From Candidatus Zixiibacteriota bacterium (GTDB lineage: Bacteria; Zixibacteria; MSB-5A5; GN15; JAAZOE01), in assembly GCA_030668485.1 (NCBI GenBank), contig DAOUTW010000034.1, forward strand, positions 1 to 43,485: a DNA stretch of 43,485 bases. Reading direction: 5' to 3'. Positions within the stretch are counted from its first letter, which is position 1, and each line of letters opens with the position of its first letter. Below, piece by piece: positions 487-19,202 of the stretch. A program made the position numbers and the translations under genes. Below the pieces are notes generated by a model, which did no database searches, was not told the origin of the DNA, and saw nothing but the letters and a program-made list of their open reading frames with translations.

Positions 487-1422
487 ATGGGCAAAAACAA
501 CAAACCAATCGACTGGTCGGATAAATGCTGGAAAGAGATGCTTGTGTACCAGCGAAAGATGTTGTGGACCGAGGGTACCATTGACAATCTGGCATCATGG
601 TTGGGCTTGCGGCAGGGAATGACCGCCGTCGATATCGGCTGTGGCCTGGGATATCTCGGTTATACATATTGGCCCTATTTCGGCCGGGGTGGTCATTATA
701 TCGGCATAGATAACAACCTCGACAATCTCAAACAGGCTGGTGAGGCCTCGCCCGAATGGACCAAAGGCGGCCGGACCGACTTTGTAAATGGCAGCGCCTA
801 TCAATTACCCTTCCCCGACAATTATGCCGATCTGGTTATGTGCCAGGTAGTTATGATCCACCTGGCCGAGCCGGAAAAAGCTCTGGCCGAAATGGTCCGG
901 GTGGCTAAACCGGGCGGGCTGATTATGTGCAAGGAACCGGACAATTTATCAGCCTCGTTGACACAACATTGCTGGTCATTACCGGATTTTGATGTCGAGA
1001 CCCAGCTTCTGATGAAAAAGATTCATATCATCTCCAATATCGGGCGAATTAAACTCGGACTGGGAGACGCCTCATTCGGCCGCAAAATCCCTCATGTCCT
1101 CAAGACTCTCGGCCTGGTCGATATCGGAATCCGCAACAACGATAAAGTGCACTATCTGGACCCGCCTTATGACACGCCGATGATGAAAAACGCTATTGAA
1201 CGAGTAGGAAAGGATATCCTCGATAAGAATCGCCGGGACAAATTGTCCGCATGGGAGAGAGAACAATTCGTGGCCGGAGGCGGCGACCCCGCTGAATATG
1301 ATAAGATGAAAATAAAGGCCGATGACGTGGTCGAGGAAATGCGGACTCAAATCGAGCAGGGCAGGTATCATGCCTGTGCCGGAAGTATGTTTTTTGTTAT
1401 CAAGGGACGCAAAAAAAGTTGA
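487..1422 (+). CDS. Class I SAM-dependent methyltransferase
   Basis: A 311-residue protein with the class I methyltransferase motif I VDIGCGLGYLGY at about residues 48-60, an acidic residue after beta-2 (GIDNN), and the post-I to motif IV pattern LPFPDNYADLVMCQVVMIHL, followed by a P-G-G loop (VAKPGGLIMCKEPDN). These belong to the Methyltransf_11/25 group, which moves a methyl group from S-adenosylmethionine to a small molecule or lipid. The C-terminal 120 residues do not match a domain I know and may bind the substrate. There is no signal peptide or membrane segment, so it is probably cytosolic. The start follows an AAAGGAT ribosome binding site. It stands alone upstream of the HAO-like gene with its own terminal gap, so the substrate cannot be inferred from neighbours. 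Confidence 0.85.
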   Translation: MGKNNKPIDWSDKCWKEMLVYQRKMLWTEGTIDNLASWLGLRQGMTAVDIGCGLGYLGYTYWPYFGRGGHYIGIDNNLDNLKQAGEASPEWTKGGRTDFVNGSAYQLPFPDNYADLVMCQVVMIHLAEPEKALAEMVRVAKPGGLIMCKEPDNLSASLTQHCWSLPDFDVETQLLMKKIHIISNIGRIKLGLGDASFGRKIPHVLKTLGLVDIGIRNNDKVHYLDPPYDTPMMKNAIERVGKDILDKNRRDKLSAWEREQFVAGGGDPAEYDKMKIKADDVVEEMRTQIEQGRYHACAGSMFFVIKGRKKS

Positions 1423-9094: not shown

Positions 9095-9269
9095 GTTCAG
9101 CAACCAATCAATTTTCACCCGTTTATATGTGTACCTAATTATTGGATAACCCCATCCCCATTAAGACTTTGCCGGCAGCCTTGCGCACCCTTTATTCCAT
9201 AACATGTTCTCCAAATCGTCCGGTATTTTTAAGCTGGCATCTCACCTATTTTTATGTATTTTGCAGACG

Positions 9270-9893
9270 ATGGAAAAAAATATGAATCCAAAAGAGAAAA
9301 AAACTATCCAAATTGATGAAAAGGAATTGGTGCGGCTGGCTCAGTCCGGCGATTTCAAGGCTTTTACCACCCTTATTGAGGGTTACCGGCCCAAAATCTT
9401 CGGTCTGGCGCTGAAACTGGCTAAAAACCGCGAGGATGCGGAAGATATTTTTCAGGAGACTTTCTTGAAGGCAATTGATAACATAAAGAAGTTTCGCGCC
9501 GAATCGTCGTTCGGAACCTGGCTCTACACAATTGGTGTTAATGTCGTGCGAGCCAAATACGGCCGCGACAGCAAAGGCGAACTTCTGCCGCTTGAAGATT
9601 ATCTTCCCGCCAGTCACGACCATTCCGATGCCGCAGCGGCTCAATTGTACGACTGGAACGATCCCTTGTCCAAACTGACCAACGAGGAAATCAAGGGCAA
9701 ACTCGATAAGGCGATTCATGAATTGCCGCTCAAATATCGGCTTCCGTTCCTTTTGCGGTACACGCAGGAGATGTCGGTGCAGGAAGTGGCTGACACCCTT
9801 AATATCAAACTGGCCAACGCCAAATCACGAATCCTGCGAGCCCGGATGGCCCTGCGGCAAAATTTGAACGAATATTTTTCCGAGGATAATTAA
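9270..9893 (+). CDS. ECF-type RNA polymerase sigma factor
   Basis: About 207 residues with sigma region 2 (LVRLAQSGDFKAFTTLIEGY ... NREDAEDIFQETFLKAIDNI ... SSFGTWLYTIGVNVVRAKYG) and region 4 (LPLKYRLPFLLRYTQEMSVQEVADTLNIKLANAKSRILRARMALRQ, summarised here in parts). It directs RNA polymerase to a small regulon, probably envelope-related. The start is uncertain: ATG 9270 or ATG 9282 are both plausible and both lack a strong ribosome binding site; an earlier ATG at 9204 looks unlikely. It is followed directly by its probable anti-sigma factor. Confidence 0.92.
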   Translation: MEKNMNPKEKKTIQIDEKELVRLAQSGDFKAFTTLIEGYRPKIFGLALKLAKNREDAEDIFQETFLKAIDNIKKFRAESSFGTWLYTIGVNVVRAKYGRDSKGELLPLEDYLPASHDHSDAAAAQLYDWNDPLSKLTNEEIKGKLDKAIHELPLKYRLPFLLRYTQEMSVQEVADTLNIKLANAKSRILRARMALRQNLNEYFSEDN

Positions 9894-9894
9894 T

Positions 9895-10143
9895 ATGGGA
9901 CGCTGTGACGATTTAATAGGCAATTTGTCCGATTTCATAGACGGCGAACTCGATGCCGAAACATGCAGTGAACTGGAAAAACATCTGGCCGGCTGCAAAA
10001 ACTGCCGCCTAATGGTCGACAGTATGAAAATGACGGTGAAGCTATGCCGTGACGGTGTTCAAGAGGAGCTTCCGCCCTCTTTAAAGAAGAGGCTTGATAA
10101 AAAATTGGCCGAACGCTGGAAAAAGCAATTCGGGCATTTGTAG
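9895..10143 (+). CDS. Zinc-finger anti-sigma factor, short and soluble
   Basis: An 82-residue protein starting one base after the sigma-factor stop codon. It has the zinc-binding anti-sigma pattern HLAGCKNC (H-x3-C-x2-C) in its first half, after an N-terminal FIDGELD segment typical of this family. Unlike many relatives it has no membrane helix, so it may sense a cytoplasmic signal such as redox state rather than an envelope signal. It would bind and hold the adjacent ECF sigma factor. Confidence 0.82.
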   Translation: MGRCDDLIGNLSDFIDGELDAETCSELEKHLAGCKNCRLMVDSMKMTVKLCRDGVQEELPPSLKKRLDKKLAERWKKQFGHL

Positions 10144-10766: not shown

Positions 10767-10783
10767 TTGGCATGGATGTTGTT
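10767..10783 (+). promoter_or_regulatory. Sigma-54 (-24/-12) promoter, copy 1
   Basis: TTGGCATGGATGTTGTT fits the sigma-54 consensus TGGCAYG-N4-TTGYW, with the GG and TG elements correctly spaced. The predicted start near 10793 coincides with the left edge of the sequence shared with copy 2. A sigma-54 activator is encoded nearby (13968-16112). Confidence 0.65.
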
Positions 10784-10792
10784 GGTCCTTCT

Positions 10793-11127
10793 CTGCGCAT
10801 TGCAGGATTCCTTACCTCCGTTGTTTTGGGGTGTGGCCGGCCCGCCTGATGCGGGCCGGCTGAAAATGTAGAACCTCTCTTATCTATCGCATGGCGGGCG
10901 ACCTGATGCCGTCGCCCGCCACCCAAAAGGGTGTTTTCGGGGACAGGTCGACTGCGCGAAGATGATTATGAACGTTGCGAGTGTTAGCAAATAATTATCC
11001 CGGGCCGGGTGGCGCTTGATACGAAGCTGAAGGGGGCTGCTGAAGCACAGCCCCGCCCGCCCTTCCGGTCCGGTTAAGAAAATTGCAGGTTGGGGAACAT
11101 CAGATACCGAATGGAAGGGGCAGCATC
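10793..11127 (+). ncRNA. Structured 5' leader, copy 1, with CTGAWGC-loop hairpins
   Basis: The leader shares long stretches with the one at 16367-16551. Hairpin 1 is GCCGGCCCGC-CTGAT-GCGGGCCGGC (10836-10860). Hairpin 2 is GGCGGGCGAC-CTGATGCC-GTCGCCCGCC (10893-10920). A segment absent from copy 2 (about 10925-11081) adds hairpin 3, GGGGCTG-CTGAAGCA-CAGCCCC (11033-11054), enclosed by an outer stem CCGGGCCGG/CCGGTCCGG (11000-11008 with 11065-11073). The CTGAWGC sequence recurs at the top of all of them. None is followed by a T-run, so they are not typical terminators. Confidence 0.6.
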
Positions 11128-11220
11128 ATGTGTCACCAAACCAGACCGATCCGCGACCCGCCGGAAATAATGTCAAACTGTCACCCATTGGACGATGGGG
11201 GGCTGACAAAATGTGGTTGA
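11128..11220 (+). CDS. Small leader ORF, copy 1 (MCHQTRPIRDPPE peptide)
   Basis: Encodes 30 residues beginning MCHQTRPIRDPPE, with a GGGG ribosome binding site (AAGGGGCAGCATCATG). The same 13 residues begin the small ORF at 16552. The three base differences between the two copies in this part (CAC/CAT, CCG/CCA, CCG/CCT) are all silent third-position changes. In the overlapping MEGAAS frame the same differences change the protein. After residue 13 the two diverge. It lies between the hairpin leader and the lipoprotein-like gene and could be a leader peptide or a secreted or intracellular signal peptide. Confidence 0.5.
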   Translation: MCHQTRPIRDPPEIMSNCHPLDDGGLTKCG

Positions 11221-11261
11221 CTAATCCAACAAAAGAAACTATGTAAAAGGAGGCAGTAATC

Positions 11262-12164
11262 ATGAAAAGGAGAATACTTATGCTGGCAACCATTCTGATG
11301 GTTGTGCATCTCTTTTGGGGATGCGAGGCGGTTGTTGATCCTGTTTCAATAGCATCATCTCAGAACCTTCAGAAAACGCAAATCATCGAAATTCCCGAAC
11401 AACTGGATGAAAACATTATCGCCACGGTTATGGGCGGAGGTACGCCCGATTTTATCGATACTCTGCTGAACAACAGCGTGGTTTCAATCTACGGCGTCGA
11501 CACTACCGGCGATGCCGTAATCGTCGCTTTTTCCTATACTGTTGATGAAGGTCCCGCTATCGAGCGCATTGTACAGATTGAGCATTCGCTGAAACATCTG
11601 ATCTTATATGATATCGCCGGAACGCCGCTTTCGGGATATAGTATAACGGCCAATGATTCCAAGATTGATCTTACGGTATTTTCCGGTGGCAATTTTATAG
11701 CCATGTCGCATTCTGATTCACCCGGGACGGAAGTCATCGCTGAAGTTTTGTACGATGGCCAGCTGTCCCAGGCAGTATTTGCCGACGATAATGAATTCGA
11801 TTCGGCTATGGCGCTTTATGATGCCGTTTATACCGGCGGATATGATCGCAATCTCCTGTCCCCCAATGAGCAGGCCATCATTGAAAAAGCGGAAGTTATT
11901 GCTCTTTGGACCGAGCTGAGTACGGAGCAGGAAACCGACATCGAAACTGCCGTACAGCTATCTCTTGACAGCGATTTCCAAGGCTTTATCGACGCCGGGT
12001 ATTCGCCGGATGAACCGGTTAATAAATTACCCGATTGGCTGAAAGCAATCTGCAAAATGATTCGTATCGTGAAAAAGATATGCGATATAATCTTTGGCGC
12101 CGTTGTTTGTGAATATGTCGAAGTGCTTGTTTTGTTATGCGATGCTGCGGAGGCAATCTTATAG
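11262..12164 (+). CDS. Lipoprotein-like protein with Cys-rich hydrophobic C-terminal tail, copy 1
   Basis: A 300-residue protein starting after AAAGGAGG. The N-terminus is a signal sequence ending in Cys21 (HLFWGC), a weak lipobox. The central domain is acidic and beta-rich and is not recognised. The last 40 residues switch character: WLKAICKMIRIVKKIC then a hydrophobic run with two more cysteines (spacing C-x9-C-x8-C-x9-C). The copy 2 protein at 16662 has the same plan, with Cys21 and a Cys-rich hydrophobic tail. Such a tail is reminiscent of bacteriocins carried at the C-terminus of a longer precursor (halocin C8 type), but this is only a resemblance. It is expressed from the sigma-54 cassette. 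Confidence 0.7.
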   Translation: MKRRILMLATILMVVHLFWGCEAVVDPVSIASSQNLQKTQIIEIPEQLDENIIATVMGGGTPDFIDTLLNNSVVSIYGVDTTGDAVIVAFSYTVDEGPAIERIVQIEHSLKHLILYDIAGTPLSGYSITANDSKIDLTVFSGGNFIAMSHSDSPGTEVIAEVLYDGQLSQAVFADDNEFDSAMALYDAVYTGGYDRNLLSPNEQAIIEKAEVIALWTELSTEQETDIETAVQLSLDSDFQGFIDAGYSPDEPVNKLPDWLKAICKMIRIVKKICDIIFGAVVCEYVEVLVLLCDAAEAIL

Positions 12165-12207
12165 ACCGAAATGGTGTAATTTAAACCTGATTGAATGCGA
12201 GGAATTT

Positions 12208-13239
12208 ATGCGACAAATAGTAATCCTTCACATTATTCTGGCGATTGTAATGATGACCTCGCCATTATTTGGAGACATGACCACCACTGATCGAACGTCC
12301 ATGCGGGCTATGGGGATTACTATTAGTGAAACAACCAATTTAACTTCAATCAAGGGTGACCGTTCAAGATCCGAGGAGTTGAACTCCTCGGATCAGTTTA
12401 TGATGCTTGCTCTCGATAATTGGAATGAAAAATCGCTTTCGATTAAACGCCTTGATTCGGGCGTCTGTTGGACGATCTATCCTGACGATTCATCATATGG
12501 TGAGGAATTACTTCGCTATACCCCGGACACCATTACGCGATTCCAGGCCAGCATGCCCGGTCTCGATGATGAGTTTAATCCAAAGCCAGAAATGCCTGAT
12601 TGGGTATTGCTTTCGAAAACTGAATATCATGATACCTGCCTCGGGTTCCCCTGTATGGTGATCGAGTCATCCGCATGCATTTCAGGCGAGAAAAACAAGG
12701 GCGACAGCATGATTGCCACATGTCAGTTTTGGGTGGTATCAGATGACGACTACTTCGATGAAGCGGCAACTCATGATCAAAAATTAAGGGACGTCGCCGG
12801 ACTACCGGAGGATTATAAATTCTCCATTTTCGGCGCTATTCTCAGCCAATTCAATATCACTTTTGCTGATCTGGCGTTGGATTCTCTTCAAGGTTTTCCG
12901 GTTAAGGCGGAAATTTCGATCCGTGCCGGGGTAATCGGTGAATACAAAAATGATCTCCAACCCGATATAATGGCCGATGAAATTGTCTCCGAAGAAATAC
13001 TTGAAAGTGAAGCGGCCCTTATGGAGGCTGACACAGGAATTACATCGGTTGAAACCGATCAGGCCCTCAAGGATTCCATGTATGACTTGCACAAAGAGTT
13101 TTTCGAACAGGTGAAGACAAAAGTCGAGACCGGCATAATGGAATTGACAGGTATAAAATACGAGGTAGTCAACATCGACACCACGACCGTTTTGCCTGAC
13201 AGTCTCTTCGAAATCCCAACGGGATTCACTAAGCGATGA
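12208..13239 (+). CDS. Secreted DUF4412-like protein
   Basis: The ATG at 12208 follows GAGG and opens a signal peptide (MRQIVILHIILAIVMMTSPLFG). The open frame continues upstream to 12094, but that overlaps the previous gene without a start site. The 343-residue product has features I associate with DUF4412: an N-terminal TTTDRTSMRAMG...KGDRSRSE stretch, a central beta-rich part, and the terminal DSLFEIPTGFTKR. Its role is unknown. It follows the copy 1 lipoprotein by 43 bases and is probably co-transcribed. The last 15 codons of a paralogue survive at 17649-17714, after the copy 2 lipoprotein. Confidence 0.7.
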   Translation: MRQIVILHIILAIVMMTSPLFGDMTTTDRTSMRAMGITISETTNLTSIKGDRSRSEELNSSDQFMMLALDNWNEKSLSIKRLDSGVCWTIYPDDSSYGEELLRYTPDTITRFQASMPGLDDEFNPKPEMPDWVLLSKTEYHDTCLGFPCMVIESSACISGEKNKGDSMIATCQFWVVSDDDYFDEAATHDQKLRDVAGLPEDYKFSIFGAILSQFNITFADLALDSLQGFPVKAEISIRAGVIGEYKNDLQPDIMADEIVSEEILESEAALMEADTGITSVETDQALKDSMYDLHKEFFEQVKTKVETGIMELTGIKYEVVNIDTTTVLPDSLFEIPTGFTKR

Positions 13240-13259
13240 AATAGAGTCATATTGTTCCA

Positions 13260-13294
13260 ACGGCCCATGCCACATCCGGATGGGCCGTCTTATT
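13260..13294 (+). terminator. Rho-independent terminator
   Basis: ACGGCCCA and TGGGCCGT form an 8-bp stem with a 13-base loop, followed by CTTATT. It closes the copy 1 cassette. Confidence 0.6.
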
Positions 13295-13645
13295 CATGAT
13301 CAAGTCGTCAAATCCAGCCGCTTGGCCGTGCCTGAAGTCTCAAATGACCAAATTATGATCATATGAACACCCCTAAAGTAATCCTATTTTCTGCTTGACA
13401 GACTTTTGTTAATCTATTAACTTTCCGATAGATAGAGTAAGAGAGGTGAGGCTGGGGAAAAGAATCATCTCGAAAAGGCATCGCTCACCAAGCGACATAT
13501 GAATTTTGGAAAGGCCTGAAACGCTACATAAGCGCCTTTTCTGGTTGGGATTATTTCGACAAAATAAACAGGCTTTTGTCTCCGGGCATTTTGTCTGACG
13601 ATGGATAGGTAAACTTTACACAACCTCTATTGCGGAGGTGATAAC
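13295..13645. other. Long 5' region before the small secreted protein gene
   Basis: A TTGACA at about 13396 with a weak -10 (TAACTT, 17 bases later) could be a promoter. The transcript would carry a leader of about 200 bases with a hairpin GAAAGG...CCTTTTC enclosing CGC...GCG at about 13508-13542. No known riboswitch was recognised. Confidence 0.35.
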
Positions 13646-14008
13646 ATGAAACGGATAATAATGGGGCTTGGCGTAGGGGTTATTTTACTTCTATGCTTTT
13701 CCACATCACTCCAGGCCTTTGATCGTGATATAAATCTCCCCAGCCCGAATGCTTCCGACCCAAAATGGATATTTCAGGCTATTGAAGGAGATGAAGGCGG
13801 TTGGGATGAACCTATTCATTCTCCGGGTATTATCCCTGATGATGGCTTTTGGTGGTTCCCGGTATGGGACGGTGTACTCATTCGACATTTATGGAATAGT
13901 TATATTCTCAGTGATATAAAGCATCCTATAGCAAATACCCAAATCGGAAATATTGGGACGGATGAAAATGCAGAGCCTACGGAAAATAGCAGCTTTACTG
14001 GAAGATAG
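13646..14008 (+). CDS. Small secreted protein, function unknown
   Basis: A 120-residue protein with a strong ribosome binding site (GCGGAGGTGATAAC before ATG) and a signal peptide (MKRIIMGLGVGVILLLCFSTSLQA). The mature part is about 95 residues, rich in Trp, Pro and Asp (DDGFWWFPVWDG). No family is recognised. Its last 41 bases overlap the start of the activator gene in another frame, so the two are translationally linked. It could be the sensory or signal partner of the TPR-linked activator; this is inference from position. Confidence 0.65.
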   Translation: MKRIIMGLGVGVILLLCFSTSLQAFDRDINLPSPNASDPKWIFQAIEGDEGGWDEPIHSPGIIPDDGFWWFPVWDGVLIRHLWNSYILSDIKHPIANTQIGNIGTDENAEPTENSSFTGR

Positions 14009-16112
14009 GAAATTCAAAGAAGCTGTAGAACAAACTAAGCTTCTGAATATTAGTGAATTTTCATCCGCTGATCGGGCCTATTTTCGTTTATTGGAAATCG
14101 AGGCGAAGATACTGTGTGGTGAGTACGATGTCGATGCTCAATTGGATGAAGTATTGGAGTATTACAAAAGTAGCACTGACACTTTTAAGTTTGCTAAAGC
14201 AAAATACTTGCATGGATGGTTATTGTCGCTACGCGGTGATTATCGAGACGCGAGAGAGAGTTTAATAGAGGCCTATGTTAGTTTCAAAAGATGTAGCGAT
14301 AATCTCTGGCAGGCAAGATCATTAAACAGACTCGGCTTTATTTGTTTCACTCTGGGAGATATCGATTCCGCAGTTGAGCATATACAGAGGGCAATTGGAT
14401 TATATCTAACATCAGACGAAGAAAAGCATGTTATTTCCTGTACTCTGAACCTCGCGACTATTTTAAGCTTTGCAGGCAAATTATGCGATGCAACAAAGGC
14501 TTTCCTAAATCTTCATGACTCAATAAAAGTGCTAAAGGAAAAAAGCCTTTGCATCTACCACGCTCAATTTTCGGTGGTTTTGGCTATCACCGGTCATATA
14601 GAGGCTGGCAAAGAAGAGCTTCGCAAAATAAATAGTTATATAAAGGATTTCCCCCGCGAGCGTGCCATCTACTACGAAAACCTCGGATGGATTCATCTGC
14701 TTGAGGAAGATTATCAAAGCGCCGAAAAAGCTCTGCTCGAAGGCTTGAAAATATCCCTCGAAATCGCACCCAAATCGGCCCTGATATCGCAAATCAAAAG
14801 ACGCCTCGCCGACGCCTGCTTCGGACTCGGCCAATTCGAAAAGGCCAAAAAATACGCCGACGAAGCGATGGTCGTCGCCGAAAATATCAACGAACGCGTC
14901 GAAATCGCCGCCTGCTGGCGCGTCTATGCCCAACTGGAAGCAAGGGACGGCAACGAACCGGCCGCCCGGCAATGGTTCACCAAAGCGATCGACATGTTCG
15001 CCATGATCAGCTCGCGCTACGAACTGGCCGCCACCCGCTACCTCGCCGCCGTCTCGGGGATGTATCACAACGGCGAACGGCAGGTGCTGTTGTATCTGGC
15101 GCGTGAATATTTCGAAAGCGAAGATGTCCGTCACTATGTCGAAAAAATCGACCGCGAAATAAAACGAACCCGCCGCCTCCCGATGCCCCGCCGGGTCGAT
15201 GACAACGGCCAACCACCGACTATCATCACTGTCAATCCCAAAATGAAAAAGCTGGTCGAACTGGCCGAAAATGTCGCCCTCGCCGACATGACTGTCCTCC
15301 TCACCGGCCCCACCGGCACCGGCAAAGACCTGCTGGCCGCTTTCATCCATTACCATTCGGGCCGCAAAGGCCGGTTCATCTCAGTCAATTCCGCCGCCAT
15401 CCCCGACCAGATGATCGAATCGGAACTGTTCGGATACAAAAAAGGCGCCTACACCGGTGCCGACAAAGCCACCACCGGCCTGATCGAATGCGCTGAGGGA
15501 GGGACGTTTTACCTCAACGAAATCGCCGACGCCTCGCCCGAAATGCAAGCCAAACTGCTCGATGTCATCGAAAACCGCACCGTCCGGCGACTGGGCGAAC
15601 GGCAGTCGCGCAAGATCGATTTCCGGGTGATCGCCGCTACCAACCATGACCTGGAGCAGATGATCCGCGGCGGCAAGTTCCGCGCCGACCTTTATCATCG
15701 CCTCAACGAGATTCCGATCACACTTCCGGCACTGGCCGACCGCCTCGAAGATATCCCGGCGCTGCTCAAACATTTCCTGACGCAGGCCAAGGTCAGCCTC
15801 AACGGCGATTCCGATCATAAAGCGATCGACCGTCTGGCCGAGGTTTTATCCGGTCGCGCATGGCCCGGCAATGTGCGCGAATTCGAAGCCGGCATCAACC
15901 GCCTGGTTTTCACCTCCAAAGGCGACCTCAACCGCATGATCGCGGCGGCCTCCGACGGCGCGGCACTGACGGAGCGCGAGCAGTTGCAGGAGGCCCTGAT
16001 GCAAACCGGATGGAATCGCACCGAGGCGGCCCGCATCCTGGGCGTCTCCGAGGGCACCATCCGCAACCGCATCAAAAAGTACGACCTGACCGTCGCCGAA
16101 GAAACCACCTGA
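13968..16112 (+). CDS. Sigma-54-dependent transcriptional activator with TPR sensor domain
   Basis: I choose ATG 13968 (GGACGG upstream at good spacing); TTG 13953 and ATG 13962 are alternatives. The 714-residue product has tetratricopeptide-like helical repeats in residues 1 to about 400, an AAA+ sigma-54 activation domain (about 425-650), and a Fis-type helix-turn-helix at the end (NRTEAARILGVSEGTIRNRI). The AAA+ part shows Walker A GPTGTGKD (about 447), the sigma-54 contact loop as GAYTGA (about 493) instead of GAFTGA, and an arginine finger FRADLYHRLN. The Walker B aspartate is asparagine (GGTFYLNEI, N517), which may slow ATP hydrolysis. The first 225 codons are clearly richer in AT than the rest. 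It lies between two sigma-54 promoters, its probable targets. Confidence 0.93.
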   Translation: MQSLRKIAALLEDRKFKEAVEQTKLLNISEFSSADRAYFRLLEIEAKILCGEYDVDAQLDEVLEYYKSSTDTFKFAKAKYLHGWLLSLRGDYRDARESLIEAYVSFKRCSDNLWQARSLNRLGFICFTLGDIDSAVEHIQRAIGLYLTSDEEKHVISCTLNLATILSFAGKLCDATKAFLNLHDSIKVLKEKSLCIYHAQFSVVLAITGHIEAGKEELRKINSYIKDFPRERAIYYENLGWIHLLEEDYQSAEKALLEGLKISLEIAPKSALISQIKRRLADACFGLGQFEKAKKYADEAMVVAENINERVEIAACWRVYAQLEARDGNEPAARQWFTKAIDMFAMISSRYELAATRYLAAVSGMYHNGERQVLLYLAREYFESEDVRHYVEKIDREIKRTRRLPMPRRVDDNGQPPTIITVNPKMKKLVELAENVALADMTVLLTGPTGTGKDLLAAFIHYHSGRKGRFISVNSAAIPDQMIESELFGYKKGAYTGADKATTGLIECAEGGTFYLNEIADASPEMQAKLLDVIENRTVRRLGERQSRKIDFRVIAATNHDLEQMIRGGKFRADLYHRLNEIPITLPALADRLEDIPALLKHFLTQAKVSLNGDSDHKAIDRLAEVLSGRAWPGNVREFEAGINRLVFTSKGDLNRMIAAASDGAALTEREQLQEALMQTGWNRTEAARILGVSEGTIRNRIKKYDLTVAEETT

Positions 16113-16340
16113 TCCATCATTCAATAAATCAATTTACGAATTACGAATTTGGCTCGTAATTCTACGCATGCGTAATCCCTTATCACACAACACCATGTGA
16201 ATCCGTCTACGAAATTCGTAATTCCATTCGTAAATTTACGAATTAGCTACGCCTATGCGATGATGCTGTCGCATACTCCAAAACACACTAATCATTTACA
16301 CAGCAATCGGATACAACATAAATCACGCTTTTGTGCATGA
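16113..16340. promoter_or_regulatory. Candidate upstream activator sites for sigma-54 promoter copy 2
   Basis: The region is dense in palindromes: TACGCATGCGTA (16163-16174), the perfect 18-mer ATTCGTAAATTTACGAAT (16226-16243), and TGCGA-N8-TCGCA (16256-16273), plus repeated TTACGAA/TTCGTAA words. They lie about 70-180 bases before the sigma-54 promoter, the usual distance for enhancer-binding protein sites. No gene is seen. Confidence 0.5.
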
Positions 16341-16357
16341 GTGGCATGATTCTTGTT
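16341..16357 (+). promoter_or_regulatory. Sigma-54 (-24/-12) promoter, copy 2
   Basis: GTGGCATGATTCTTGTT matches TGGCAYG-N4-TTGYW with correct spacing, and corresponds to the promoter at 10767. Predicted start near 16367, at the left edge of the shared leader. Confidence 0.7.
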
Positions 16358-16366
16358 AAATGATTT

Positions 16367-16551
16367 ACTGCGTATTGCGGAGATTCCTTACCTCCGATGA
16401 TTAGGGTGCCGGCGGTCCGTCTGAAGCGGGCTGCCGGCTGATGTGGCTAAACCTCTCTTATCTATCGCATGGCGGGCGACCTGATGCCGTCGCCCGCCAC
16501 CCAAAATTGCAGGTTGGGGAACATTACATACCGAATGAAAGGGGCAGCATC
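16367..16551 (+). ncRNA. Structured 5' leader, copy 2
   Basis: Hairpin 1 (16408-16438) has arms GCCGGCGGTCCGT and GCGGGCTGCCGGC around a CTGAA loop. Its sequence differs from copy 1, but the arms still pair fully when G-U pairs are counted. Hairpin 2 (16471-16498) is identical to copy 1, with loop CTGATGCC. The third hairpin segment of copy 1 is missing here. Shared flanks include ATTCCTTACCTCCG, ACCTCTCTTATCTATCGCAT and TTGCAGGTTGGGGAACAT. Confidence 0.6.
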
Positions 16552-16623
16552 ATGTGTCATCAAACCAGACCAATCCGCGACCCGCCTGAATCGGTGAATG
16601 CTACTAATCCAAGAAATAATTGA
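16552..16623 (+). CDS. Small leader ORF, copy 2 (MCHQTRPIRDPPE peptide)
   Basis: Encodes 23 residues, MCHQTRPIRDPPE followed by SVNATNPRNN, with the same AAGGGGCAGCATC ribosome binding region as copy 1. It ends 38 bases before the copy 2 lipoprotein. An open frame extends upstream through the hairpins, but the conserved start and ribosome binding site favour this ATG. Confidence 0.5.
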   Translation: MCHQTRPIRDPPESVNATNPRNN

Positions 16624-16661
16624 CTAAAGGATAAGAGCAAATAATCTAAAATGAGGAGATC

Positions 16662-17456
16662 ATGAAACGCTTACCGATTATTATTATGTTGATCACCGCC
16701 CTGCTCAACCTGACAATAGGTTGTAGCACAGATGATAAGGCATTGACGTCCAGCGATCAAACTTCAACATTAGAGGGCGCAGCACAGCGAAGTTTTGAAG
16801 TGACCGAATGCCAGACAGGACAGATCATTCATGTGAGTTCACTCAACTTGTCAATTGATACGGAAATGCTGCCTGATATCGAACTGTCGCTGGCTAATGG
16901 TGAGATTCAAGCTACTATAGAGAAATTTTCGGATATGTATTATTCTTTGGATTTGGCAAATTCGTTTGTTATGGAAGGTATCGGGGTTCCAGAAGGAACC
17001 ACCGATTCAGTTAGCGTCAAGATCATTAATCTCATTATGAGATATGATCCAGACAGCCTGCACAGCTTAATCTGGATATCCCAGATTAGTTCTCCGGGTC
17101 GTGACGACCTATACAGTTATATCCAAACTTCGCAATGGAATTTTGTTATTCCCGAAGAGAATTCCAGCGATTTCGAAATGATTCACTTGGGGACTAACGA
17201 CGAAGGTCATGAGTGTTTTGTTTGGATCAAGGACCATATTTCCCCTTATTCACCCAAGGGTGATGCCTCAACGGCCCTGTGGAGTTGGAAATCCTGGGGG
17301 AAGTGCGTTGCCATTACAGCTGTTGCTGGATGTGTGGGATCCGTCACAAAGTGTTTGATTACGGGCCCGGCCTATGCACAATGTATGGCCGCGGGTTGCG
17401 GAGGCAGCGTGGCTGCGGGAGTAGTCGGGTGCGCTCTGAAAGAATGGTTTTTTTAA
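16662..17456 (+). CDS. Lipoprotein-like protein with Cys/Gly-rich hydrophobic tail, copy 2
   Basis: A 264-residue protein with a GAGGAG ribosome binding site. The signal sequence ends at Cys21 (NLTIGC), like copy 1. The middle part is acidic and unrecognised. The last 54 residues form a distinct Cys/Gly/Ala-rich hydrophobic block (SWGKCVAITAVAGC...KCLITGPAYAQC...GCGGSVAAGVVGCALKEWFF) with six cysteines. This is the sort of segment seen in disulfide-bonded or circular hydrophobic bacteriocins attached to a longer precursor. The genes after it encode a small membrane protein and a CPBP-family protein, a family often involved in bacteriocin processing or self-immunity. Function is inferred, not shown. 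Confidence 0.7.
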   Translation: MKRLPIIIMLITALLNLTIGCSTDDKALTSSDQTSTLEGAAQRSFEVTECQTGQIIHVSSLNLSIDTEMLPDIELSLANGEIQATIEKFSDMYYSLDLANSFVMEGIGVPEGTTDSVSVKIINLIMRYDPDSLHSLIWISQISSPGRDDLYSYIQTSQWNFVIPEENSSDFEMIHLGTNDEGHECFVWIKDHISPYSPKGDASTALWSWKSWGKCVAITAVAGCVGSVTKCLITGPAYAQCMAAGCGGSVAAGVVGCALKEWFF

Positions 17457-17472
17457 TTTATGAGGTGATTAT

Positions 17473-17646
17473 ATGAAAAGTAGTATGCTCACCGGGATAA
17501 CCTGTTCGGTCGTCGTTTTGGTCATTTTTCAGGTGCTGAACCTATGGGATAAGTCGTTTTTTATCTCTCTCATTATTGCTATTGTCATTGGTGGGATAGT
17601 GGGCACAGTATTCGGAATACGAGGCACCAAAGGCAAAACACCATAG
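17473..17646 (+). CDS. Small membrane protein, 57 residues
   Basis: ATG 17473 follows TGAGGTGATTAT, 16 bases after the copy 2 lipoprotein. The product has two hydrophobic helices (TCSVVVLVIFQVL and SLIIAIVIGGIVGTVFGI) and a basic end (RGTKGKTP). No family recognised. Position suggests an immunity or accessory membrane protein of the cassette. Confidence 0.6.
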   Translation: MKSSMLTGITCSVVVLVIFQVLNLWDKSFFISLIIAIVIGGIVGTVFGIRGTKGKTP

Positions 17647-17648
17647 CT

Positions 17649-17714
17649 GCCGCCTCGTCAATTGTCGGCAACGACAGTCTGATCGGCATCCCGGCCGGAT
17701 TCACCAAGCGCTAA
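17649..17714 (+). pseudogene. Remnant: C-terminal end of a DUF4412-like gene
   Basis: Twenty-one codons plus stop read ...GNDSLIGIPAGFTKR, matching the end of the 12208-13239 product (LPDSLFEIPTGFTKR) at 11 of 15 residues. No start or body remains. It sits at the place, after the copy 2 lipoprotein, where copy 1 has the full gene. It shows that the whole cassette was once duplicated and that copy 2 later lost this gene. Confidence 0.7.
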
Positions 17715-17758
17715 TGCTCGCGAATATCCACTCATGAACCAATAGACCTTACTTTATT

Positions 17759-17789
17759 TCATGGAGGTGAAATCAAATCACCTCCATGA
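17759..17789 (+). other. Perfect hairpin with SD-like and anti-SD arms
   Basis: TCATGGAGGTGA-AATCAAA-TCACCTCCATGA is a 12-bp perfect stem with a 7-base loop, 15 bases before the CPBP gene start. The arms carry GGAGGTGA and its complement. The gene's own ribosome binding site (AAGGA) is outside the stem. It may be a processing or regulatory element; no T-run follows. Confidence 0.55.
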
Positions 17790-17804
17790 TTAAGGACAGA
17801 ATAA

Positions 17805-18572
17805 ATGGCATTATCAAGTATTATCAAAGACAAACCATACAACTTGCCGTGGGTGAAAGACCACATTGACGCCATTTTCATCACCTTTTTCTTTGTTATT
17901 CCTCCCAATCCCATTCAATTCCCAATCGGATATATTTATGGAACTTGCGTCCTTGTCTATTTCGTTTTCTTTGTCAAAGGCCCCAATCAACTCGGCCTGA
18001 GTTTGAAACTTTCACGAAAAGCAATCAAATGGCTCCTGGGTATTGTGCTTGTATTCCTGACTATCAATATGGGGATGATTTTTCTGATAGATGCGACCAA
18101 AAACTATGCCGCCGAACATCCAGAAGAGGGCCCCTTCCTAGAGGAAATGATTGAATACGACTGGGGTTACTATTGGAAACCGGCCGAGTCTCTATACCAA
18201 TCGCTTTCGGATAAGAATATAGGCATGACAACAATTGCCTTTTTGAAGCCGTCCACTCATCTCATCATTCTGGCACCTCTATTTGAAACGGTTATTATTT
18301 TCGCAATTCTGCTCCCTGGTCTATGGAAAAGATTCGGATACTTGAAAGCGGTTCTAGTCGTATCTCTGGTATTTATTCTCCTACATTTCCCGAACATCCC
18401 TTTCATTTGGGCATTTTCTCTGTTTGCTTTTTCCCTACTATTGATATGGTTTTATAATAAAACCAACTCGATCTACCCATCCATAGTTTTCCATGCCTGC
18501 TTCAATCTGACTATGTTGATATTTCGCCTGGCACTGAACTGGGGCCTGCCATACAATCCGACAGGAGGATGA
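17805..18572 (+). CDS. CPBP-family intramembrane metalloprotease-like protein
   Basis: A 255-residue membrane protein with about six or seven helices. The family's motifs are partly present: APLFETVIIF in place of the usual EExxxR motif (one Glu kept), FILLHFP (FxxxH), and VFHACFNL (HxxxN). CPBP (CAAX/Abi) proteins process prenylated or peptide substrates in the membrane, and several act in bacteriocin processing or self-protection. The reduced first motif leaves activity uncertain. It ends in GGATGA, and a small membrane protein follows after one base. It sits downstream of the Cys-rich lipoprotein, which fits a processing or immunity role. Confidence 0.75.
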   Translation: MALSSIIKDKPYNLPWVKDHIDAIFITFFFVIPPNPIQFPIGYIYGTCVLVYFVFFVKGPNQLGLSLKLSRKAIKWLLGIVLVFLTINMGMIFLIDATKNYAAEHPEEGPFLEEMIEYDWGYYWKPAESLYQSLSDKNIGMTTIAFLKPSTHLIILAPLFETVIIFAILLPGLWKRFGYLKAVLVVSLVFILLHFPNIPFIWAFSLFAFSLLLIWFYNKTNSIYPSIVFHACFNLTMLIFRLALNWGLPYNPTGG

Positions 18573-18573
18573 C

Positions 18574-18717
18574 ATGAAAAACAAAATCTGGCAAATAATC
18601 GGTATCGCTGCGCTGTGGATCGCAACCATATGGCTTCTTGTAACCGGGCAATACCTGGCCCTTTCCATAGTCTTCATTTTCGCAGTTGCGGTAAGTTTGC
18701 TGTTGTTTAGAAAATAG
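18574..18717 (+). CDS. Small membrane protein, 47 residues
   Basis: ATG 18574 lies one base after the CPBP stop codon with AGGAGG inside the end of that gene. The product has two hydrophobic segments (IIGIAALWIATIWLLVTG and LALSIVFIFAVAVSLLLF) and short basic ends. No family recognised. It is almost certainly co-translated with the CPBP gene. Confidence 0.65.
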   Translation: MKNKIWQIIGIAALWIATIWLLVTGQYLALSIVFIFAVAVSLLLFRK

Positions 18718-19202
18718 AGTCTTTGTCTGTTCGCCCACGACGGACTCTGACCAGACCCCTATTTTATAGGGCATCCCCCCTATTTGCCTTGTCCGATAAG
18801 CCCCGGTTACGTATTATTACTGAACAACAACCGACAGGAATAATGCGATGCCGGAAAGCTCCAGCGCCAACGACAATCTGATCATCTTCTCCGATTTCGA
18901 CGGGACCATCTCGACCCAGGACATCGGCAACAACTTATAATCTAATTGACTAAGCAGGGGCCGTTCGTGACAGGCAGGGGCCTGGTTACGGCCCTTGAGG
19001 GCGGCTCCCGAGCCGCCCCTACAATCTGGCGGGAATTTGTCGCGAGGGGCGAGCCACCAAAGCCACCTAAGCCACCTAAGCCACGACACAACAACAACTT
19101 AAATTAATACCGAAAAATCTCCTGTTTTTTTTGAATCGTTTCAGCCAAATCTGCATCTAAATCGCCAATAAGCATAAAATCACCAGCATAAAGGGAAGTG
19201 AC
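18718..19202. repeat. Intergenic region with repeat elements
   Basis: Besides the HAD fragment, the region holds a copy of the genome's CAGGCAGGGGCCTG repeat (about 18972-18986), a GGGCGGCT-CCCG-AGCCGCCC hairpin (about 19000-19019), and a short tandem AAGCCACCT array (about 19060-19083). These are typical dispersed palindromic elements. The RND gene start at 19203 has a GGGAAG ribosome binding site. Confidence 0.5.
18848..18940 (+). pseudogene. Truncated N-terminus of a HAD-family phosphatase gene
   Basis: A 30-residue frame reads NDNLIIFSDFDGTISTQDIG, the first HAD motif (DxDGT) of MtnX/SerB-like phosphatases, and then stops (NNL-TAA). No continuation is found before the repeat-rich sequence that follows. 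The likely ribosome binding site ACAGGAAT is intact. The gene seems to have been cut at about 18935 and its remainder lost or moved by recombination at the repeats. Confidence 0.65.

Follow-up and report, generated by a model that had tools for sequence, protein, structure and literature searches.

What do the sigma-54 activators of Candidatus Zixiibacteriota that carry a tetratricopeptide repeat (TPR) domain respond to, and what do they switch on? The question is raised by contig C29 of a 4.5-Mb, 139-contig Zixibacteria genome, analysed here over its length of 43,485 nucleotides (the window), in which the genes of a small secreted protein and a TPR-AAA+-Fis activator lie between two cassettes of the same order. 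The 5' half of the locus runs from promoter 1 through a structured RNA, a mini-open reading frame (mini-ORF) and Cys-tail lipoprotein 1 to a 343-aa secreted protein, and the 3' half from the small secreted protein and the activator through promoter 2, RNA, mini-ORF and Cys-tail lipoprotein 2 to a 57-aa membrane protein, a CPBP protein and a 47-aa membrane protein. On balance, we lean towards a peptide-controlled sigma-54 switch, in which an exported peptide with a Trp-acidic motif would act through the TPR-AAA+-Fis activator on an output of RNA and Cys-tail proteins. Its regulatory wiring, as read from the peptide-activator pairing, the shared motif, the promoters, the candidate binding sites, the RNA family and the recurrent target genes, is well supported by the sequence. 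The initial annotation of this DNA already contained the two cassettes with their promoters, leaders, mini-ORFs and lipoprotein-like Cys-tail proteins, as well as the small secreted ORF, the activator (TPR-Sigma54_activat-HTH_8) and the CPBP/Rce1-like protein; all of these hold, the activator and the CPBP protein with Pfam matches. It undervalued the two most informative parts: the small secreted protein is conserved alongside the activator as its partner, and the leader belongs to an RNA family that also occurs without a Cys-tail gene.

The pairing of the small secreted protein with the activator was assessed by a rule for exported ORFs (45-160 aa, basic start, acid-free hydrophobic core, Shine-Dalgarno site, same strand, just upstream). 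The activators fall into family A (~715 aa, several copies per genome, patchy) and family B (~755 aa, near-universal), and a signal-peptide ORF is found just 5' of the activator at 31/37 family-A loci, with no peptide detected at the other 6/37, and at 18/20 family-B loci. Within the genome of the window, all six testable TPR activators are paired (the window, C19, C99, C50, C93 and the TPR-GAF activator of C17; the TPR-GAF activator of C124 lies at a contig edge and was left out of this count), versus none of the 23 non-TPR sigma-54 activators under the same kind of rule. Activators from other phyla gave 0/38. An alignment scan returned mostly ordinary NtrC-type activators, which served as controls. 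The possibility that the peptide ORFs are gene-caller noise was rejected by the two controls (0/23 and 0/38). The peptide ORF often overlaps the activator start, and tandem arrays of two or three peptide genes are found at L049, L053, L189, L199 and L201; L053 has three, of which only the last abuts the activator. At L052 (G045:C54), the full activator is preceded by truncated TPR-only copies in tandem, interspersed with peptide genes. A third activator type, TPR-GAF-AAA+ (L250, G000:C17), also lies behind a small exported protein; the partner motifs of this type read GDHPWNED, GEHPWNDD and GENPWDSD (L250, L085 and L093), and the L085 and L093 activators have N-termini of >650 aa.

Past the signal peptide, the exported proteins (120 aa in the window, 74-134 aa in the family) have almost only a Trp with acidic neighbours in common. 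The overall motif is [DE]x[GP]W[DEG], with GDEGGWDEP as the window version, D[DE]x[GP]W[DEG][DEP] in family A and [DE]HPWGG[DE] in family B. It is carried by 38/45 family-A peptides, compared with 8.4+/-2.5 in same-residue shuffles, and by 17/18 family-B peptides, compared with 1.9+/-1.2. Within the order, the similarity of 15-mers around the Trp tracks TPR identity, with no such relation for AAA+ identity; the partial Spearman correlation was 0.35 (p 0.0005, n 21) in one run and 0.30 (p<0.001, n 33) in a second. This covariation is suggestive, not decisive.

The activator itself has 714 aa, with matches to TPR_12 (E 1e-22), PF00158 (E 1.3e-61) and PF02954 (HTH_8, E 1.4e-11); its N-terminus is the TPR domain, with no receiver domain. 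AlphaFold2 predicts, at a mean pLDDT of 89, an all-helical TPR stack over residues 1-400. A Foldseek search with the whole activator is dominated by AAA+ matches. By profile, the nearest solved relatives of the TPR domain are GPSM2/LGN/Pins and kinesin light chains, both peptide binders, and the TPRs of kinesin light chains bind tryptophan-acidic motifs in their concave face (PMC6224480). Conserved basic and acidic positions stand at 10:5 on the concave helices of the activator versus 5:8 on the convex ones. We regard the kinesin light chain parallel as a lead for peptide binding, not as proof. The GAFTGA-type loop reads GAYTGA, with G493, A494, T496, G497 and A498 invariant or nearly so. In family A, Walker B (residues 513-518) reads FYLNEI, the Asp being replaced by Asn almost invariantly and the Glu kept, whereas Asp-Glu is retained in the family-B example checked and in ordinary activators. 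TPR activators (E < 1e-110) were found in 89 of 386 genomes searched, all within the phylum (132 phylum genomes), and at this threshold none was found in the ~254 sampled genomes from outside it.

In the window, the highest-scoring sigma-54 sites are the copies of TGGCATG-N4-TTGTT at 10768 and at 16342. The genome has only 13 exact TGGCAYGN4TTGYW sites, these two among them, and the reversed pattern, used as a control, has 0. The gene rpoN, which the initial annotation had made a prerequisite, is present in the same genome (PF04552, E 4.6e-56). A strong sigma-54 site lies 50-400 nt past the activator stop, on the same strand, at 24/44 family-A loci, where 0.41 are expected. Upstream of the promoters, palindromes with arms of at least 7 and a centre 102-112 bp upstream of the -24 element were found at 11/69 scored promoters versus 21/2360 random positions, two of the 11 being repeats of the same locus (L189, L302). 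These candidate activator sites are carried by window copy 2 (ATTCGTAAATTTACGAAT), L053 (AAACTCGCAGTACTGCGAGTTT), two promoters each in L060, L067 and L189, and L076. The 16-bp core of the ATTCGTAAATTTACGAAT site occurs once in the genome, even when one mismatch is allowed. L060 resembles the window in having a cassette on either side of the activator, and upstream conservation there falls mainly on the palindromes and the promoter; a second dyad lies 31 bp further upstream at some sites (L053, L060). The earlier proposal that one activator drives both cassettes is plausible: the unique palindrome 107 bp upstream of promoter 2 speaks for it, while promoter 1 is without a clean one. Elsewhere in the same genome, two PEP-CTERM proteins are encoded directly behind exact sigma-54 sites (L230 on C17 and L239 on C108).

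The leaders of the two cassettes align at 84% (136 bp, E 2e-34) and 93% (88 bp, E 2e-31), with ~150 additional bases in copy 1 (10929-11078). They are covarying structured RNAs, present in four copies in the genome, each after a sigma-54 promoter. At the paralogue on C19, the same RNA lies behind the sigma-54 promoter without a Cys-tail gene following, and when this copy is aligned with the two of the window, one hairpin retains 11/11 pairs, five of them changed on both sides. With E 0.0011 over 1.2 Mb, a covariance model built from these three sequences (R1) identified the fourth copy at C8, where a sigma-54 site from the set of 13 directly precedes the RNA; the model's E values for copy 1 (5.5e-39) and copy 2 (1.1e-40) concern sequences used in building it. 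In the four-sequence alignment every cell of this hairpin (helix 5) is paired (100%) and 6/11 pairs have changed on both sides, and the signal vanishes when the partners are slid. The hairpin loop UGAUGCC is invariant across the copies, and the fold z is -2.9 for copy 1, -3.5 for copy 2 and -4.75 for C8. The C8 copy, which contains CCUCC stretches and ends in a GC hairpin and T run (intrinsic terminator), is by its sequence a stand-alone small RNA. This RNA (L271, G000:C8, 3169-3430) lies distant from any known TPR activator, and a WD40 gene further on is a possible trans target.

The covariance search for the leader that the initial annotation had proposed was productive in the own genome, with its four copies, whereas none was found near the activators of relatives. 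BLAST of the leader in 59 relatives gave no match outside this genome, and an Rfam search of the region returned nothing significant. The leaders of relatives do fold, with z < -2.6 in five of the eight folded, and CCUCC occurs in 12/28 leaders versus 3.4 expected, often ~45-50 nt after the promoter start. Since CCUCC is the anti-Shine-Dalgarno core, a natural reading would be that the leader RNA pairs, either in cis or in trans, with ribosome-binding sites. In the leader after the L201 activator (G124:C24), a hairpin ACCTCCCTCGG...CCGAGGGAGGT pairs CCUCC with the Shine-Dalgarno site preceding an ATG, an apparent translation lock.

Each cassette closes with a lipobox protein bearing a Cys-rich hydrophobic tail. 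The leaders and mini-ORFs of the two cassettes match; the two Cys-tail proteins are not close homologues and fall into different families (F3 versus F25/F40). The mini-ORF MCHQTRPIRDPPE occurs twice in the window, its copies differing at three synonymous third positions, which weakly favours coding; among 129 phylum genomes its pattern was found only in these two copies. Because the end of the 12208-13239 protein (...DSLFEIPTGFTKR*) is matched by a fragment after copy 2 (17649-17714, AASSIVGNDSLIGIPAGFTKR*, ending ...DSLIGIPAGFTKR*), the duplicated unit may once have been longer and have included that gene. As the refutation test of the initial annotation required, relatives of the activator do adjoin Cys-tail genes, at L046, L049, L051, L053, L067, L071, L300 and L302. 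The F3 family of copy 1 is present in 10/129 phylum genomes, and several members adjoin a TPR activator (G005 twice, G008, G054, G089 and the own genome); in G125 (L300), one neighbours a family-B activator and is preceded by a sigma-54 site of 19.6 bits. According to the alignment, one carrier domain is joined to different tails, either of a hydrophobic multi-Cys type or of the twin C-x9-C type of copy 1, which is predicted to form a helical hairpin. Pfam and NCBIfam gave no meaningful family match for the Cys-tail proteins, and a Foldseek search of the carrier returned only weak lipocalin- or fatty-acid-binding-protein (FABP)-like matches. The Cys-tail proteins may have an antibacterial, a structural or a stress role. 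At L295 and L297 a hydrophobic-type and a twin-CX9C-type gene stand in tandem, like a two-peptide pair. Short bacteriocin-like peptides with double-glycine-like leaders are encoded near F34 proteins at L073 (45 aa; ~906-1043, minus strand; MNKLQNVSFEELGERELLKGGAWW...), close to a sigma-54 promoter, and at L046, upstream of its activator. All window features are collected in Table 1. Just upstream of the cassette region, at 9204-10143, an extracytoplasmic function (ECF)-type sigma factor (sigma-70 regions 2 and 4) is followed by a zf-HC2 anti-sigma-like protein, and downstream, at 18848-18940, a short ORF (MPESSSANDNLIIFSDFDGTISTQDIGNNL*) resembles a HAD-type phosphatase gene cut short after its start.

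Table 1. Features of the TPR-activator locus, in window coordinates
Feature	Position	Strand	Basis or remark
Sigma-54 promoter 1, TGGCATGGATGTTGTT	10768..10783	+	Joint top window score; one of 13 exact genome sites
Structured RNA copy 1: CCUCC element, GC hairpin, hairpin with UGAUGCC loop	10792..10934	+	Covariance model R1, covariation, fold z
Mini-ORF 1, MCHQTRPIRDPPEIMSNCHPLDDGGLTKCG	11128..11220	+	This window only
Cys-tail lipoprotein 1, F3 family; tail of twin C-x9-C type, predicted helical hairpin	11262..12164	+	
343-aa secreted protein (F24)	12208..13239	+	Homologue also adjoins the L060 activator
Small secreted protein, Trp-acidic motif GDEGGWDEP	13646..14008	+	Conserved partner of the activator; ~40-nt overlap with activator start
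Activator: TPR (residues 1-400), AAA+ sigma-54, Fis-type helix-turn-helix (HTH)	13968..16112	+	Pfam; AlphaFold2 mean pLDDT 89
Second palindrome, TACGAAATTCGTA	16208..16220	.	128 bp upstream of -24 element
Candidate activator site, ATTCGTAAATTTACGAAT	16226..16243	.	Centre 107.5 bp upstream of promoter 2
Additional dyad TATGCGA-N8-TCGCATA	16254..16275	.	
Sigma-54 promoter 2, TGGCATGATTCTTGTT	16342..16357	+	Joint top window score; one of 13 exact genome sites
Structured RNA copy 2	16367..16512	+	Covariance model R1; fold z -3.5
Mini-ORF 2, MCHQTRPIRDPPESVNATNPRNN	16552..16623	+	This window only
Cys-tail lipoprotein 2, F25/F40 type	16662..17456	+	
57-aa membrane protein (F26)	17473..17646	+	
C-terminal fragment of 12208-13239 protein	17649..17714	+	Match to that protein's end
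CPBP/Rce1-like membrane protein (F12; also at L046 and L060)	17805..18572	+	E 9.5e-14
47-aa membrane protein	18574..18717	+	

In the switch that we propose, the TPR groove would take as its ligand the exported protein or a piece of it that contains the Trp-acidic motif. This ligand would act between cells, reaching the TPR domain after re-uptake or as an un-exported precursor. Ligand binding would release the AAA+ ring, which would then melt the sigma-54 promoters. The output would consist of a regulatory RNA and Cys-tail surface proteins, the RNA acting in cis on its cassette and stand-alone copies perhaps in trans on ribosome-binding sites; in some loci, transcripts would run on into the Cys-tail lipoproteins, small membrane proteins and the CPBP protein. 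Several points weigh against this proposal. The signal peptides were called by rule, including the Shine-Dalgarno site, and not by SignalP. The motif can lie anywhere between residues 30 and 126, and neither a protease site nor a fixed mature peptide can be recognised in the exported proteins. The peptide/TPR covariation is based on hand-cut 15-mers and does not survive the inclusion of six distant loci at class level (partial 0.10, p 0.10). For re-import of the peptide by an oligopeptide permease, as in RRNPP systems, there is only one SBP_bac_5 peptide-binding protein, just above the cut-off (45 bits versus 32). No clean palindrome was found upstream of promoter 1, and the modelled RNA family is restricted to this genome among the loci searched, other genomes having only the architecture in common.

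The best surviving alternative concerns the output and is compatible with the peptide-controlled switch: the locus could be a regulated bacteriocin-type system that releases its Cys-rich tails as antimicrobial peptides. The modularity of the tails on one carrier domain, the tandem pairs at L295 and L297 and the L073 peptide near its sigma-54 promoter agree with it. On the other hand, no Pfam or NCBIfam family match was obtained, lipobox signals would keep the carriers anchored, neither a maturation protease nor an immunity gene was identified, and some targets (C19, C8, C99) are RNAs only. On balance, we consider the bacteriocin idea of the initial annotation unlikely.

Two further alternatives, which we rate as improbable to much the same degree, concern what the activator senses. 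The first is an export monitor, in which an arrest or leader peptide of the SecM/MifM/VemP kind, or an un-exported precursor on the TPR domain, would report Sec-export or envelope status and not the presence of neighbours. It would account for the position of the signal-peptide ORF directly 5' of the activator start, often overlapping it, and for targets that are envelope lipoproteins and membrane proteins. It is at odds with the motif, which lies anywhere in residues 30-126 and mostly far from the stop, unlike known arrest motifs, with the tandem peptide genes of which only the last abuts the activator, and with a motif similarity that follows the TPR domain. According to the second, the TPR domain senses another protein partner or a metabolite, and the small secreted protein has its role in the envelope and shares no more than a transcript with the activator. 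TPR domains do have many kinds of partner, binding of the peptide is itself deduced, and the six family-A loci without a detected peptide would fit; yet in one and the same genome only TPR activators show the pairing (6/6 versus 0/23), which holds in three activator families (A, B and the TPR-GAF type C), and the motif is common to the peptides though their remainder is not conserved. That the locus is an ordinary sigma-54 operon whose promoter-leader segment has been duplicated, its peptide ORF and RNA being due to chance or repetitive sequence, is scarcely credible: although the sequence comes from a metagenome-assembled genome and the leader and mini-ORF were not found outside it, the pairing, motif, palindrome and promoter enrichments and the RNA covariation are far from chance, and the cross-genome pairing and the covariation contradict it.

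If the peptide-controlled switch is taken beyond this locus, a wider picture can be put forward, although only tentatively: a phylum-wide form of peptide communication in diderm bacteria, independent of RRNPP, with Trp-acidic pheromones, TPR-sigma-54 receptors resembling kinesin light chains, anti-Shine-Dalgarno RNAs, Cys-tail surface or antibacterial proteins and several orthogonal pairs per cell. Should this be true, peptide signalling through intracellular TPR proteins would extend beyond Firmicutes to an uncultured diderm phylum, across the bacterial tree; Zixibacteria would have a candidate communication system, and the unexplained TPR-fused sigma-54 activators a role. The initial annotation knew of no described system with this set, and none was found in the open-access papers searched, nor was a prior description of the TPR/sigma-54/peptide combination or of quorum sensing in Zixibacteria.

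Known systems resemble the locus in separate parts. Halocin C8-like precursors are exported and have a Cys-rich hydrophobic peptide as their C-terminus; the Cys-tail proteins differ from them in their lipoprotein signal, in their carrier domain and in having no Pfam or NCBIfam family match, and a literature query on halocin C8 found nothing. Trans-acting small RNAs carrying CCUCC are described from Alphaproteobacteria (PMC3927594), and anti-Shine-Dalgarno stretches in structured small RNAs are common to both; here, however, they come with sigma-54 promoters and an adjacent activator in another phylum, and the likeness lies in the CCUCC stretches. Kinesin light chains are related in TPR sequence, and their ligands have a Trp with acidic flanks (PMC6224480), but they are eukaryotic motor adaptors, the resemblance may be convergent, and binding in the activator is a prediction. 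Compared with NtrC-type sigma-54 activators, the AAA+ domain, the GAFTGA-type loop, the Fis HTH and RpoN are all present, and the Walker B Asp-Glu is not. The output follows the model of Vibrio LuxO-Qrr (PMC10162802), in which a sigma-54 AAA+ activator with a Fis-type HTH drives small structured RNAs; by sequence, the C8 copy reproduces the arrangement of a sigma-54 promoter and a terminated structured small RNA, and control by a cell-cell signal is the proposed analogy. As for Hfq-dependent pairing with target mRNAs, what corresponds to it here is the enrichment of CCUCC in the leaders. LuxO has a phosphorylated receiver domain, in contrast to the TPR domain and peptide gene found here, and the Qrr RNAs, compared with the leader through Rfam only, gave no significant match. 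The RRNPP systems (Rap-Phr, PlcR-PapR, NprR, AimR, ComR) likewise combine, in adjacent genes, a Sec-exported small protein (here predicted by rule) with a cytoplasmic TPR protein that controls transcription, and have tandem peptide genes and paralogous pairs within one genome. They are described from Firmicutes or their elements, with receptors of 250-500 aa and propeptides of 10-100 aa (PMC10075063), whereas the receptor here has ~714 aa with a sigma-54 AAA+ domain and a Fis HTH, the propeptide has 74-134 aa, is encoded upstream and carries a Trp-acidic motif, and the host is Candidatus Zixiibacteriota. Because receptor size, propeptide size and taxon fall outside the RRNPP definition, the window system would stand beside RRNPP as one that probably works alike without being a member.

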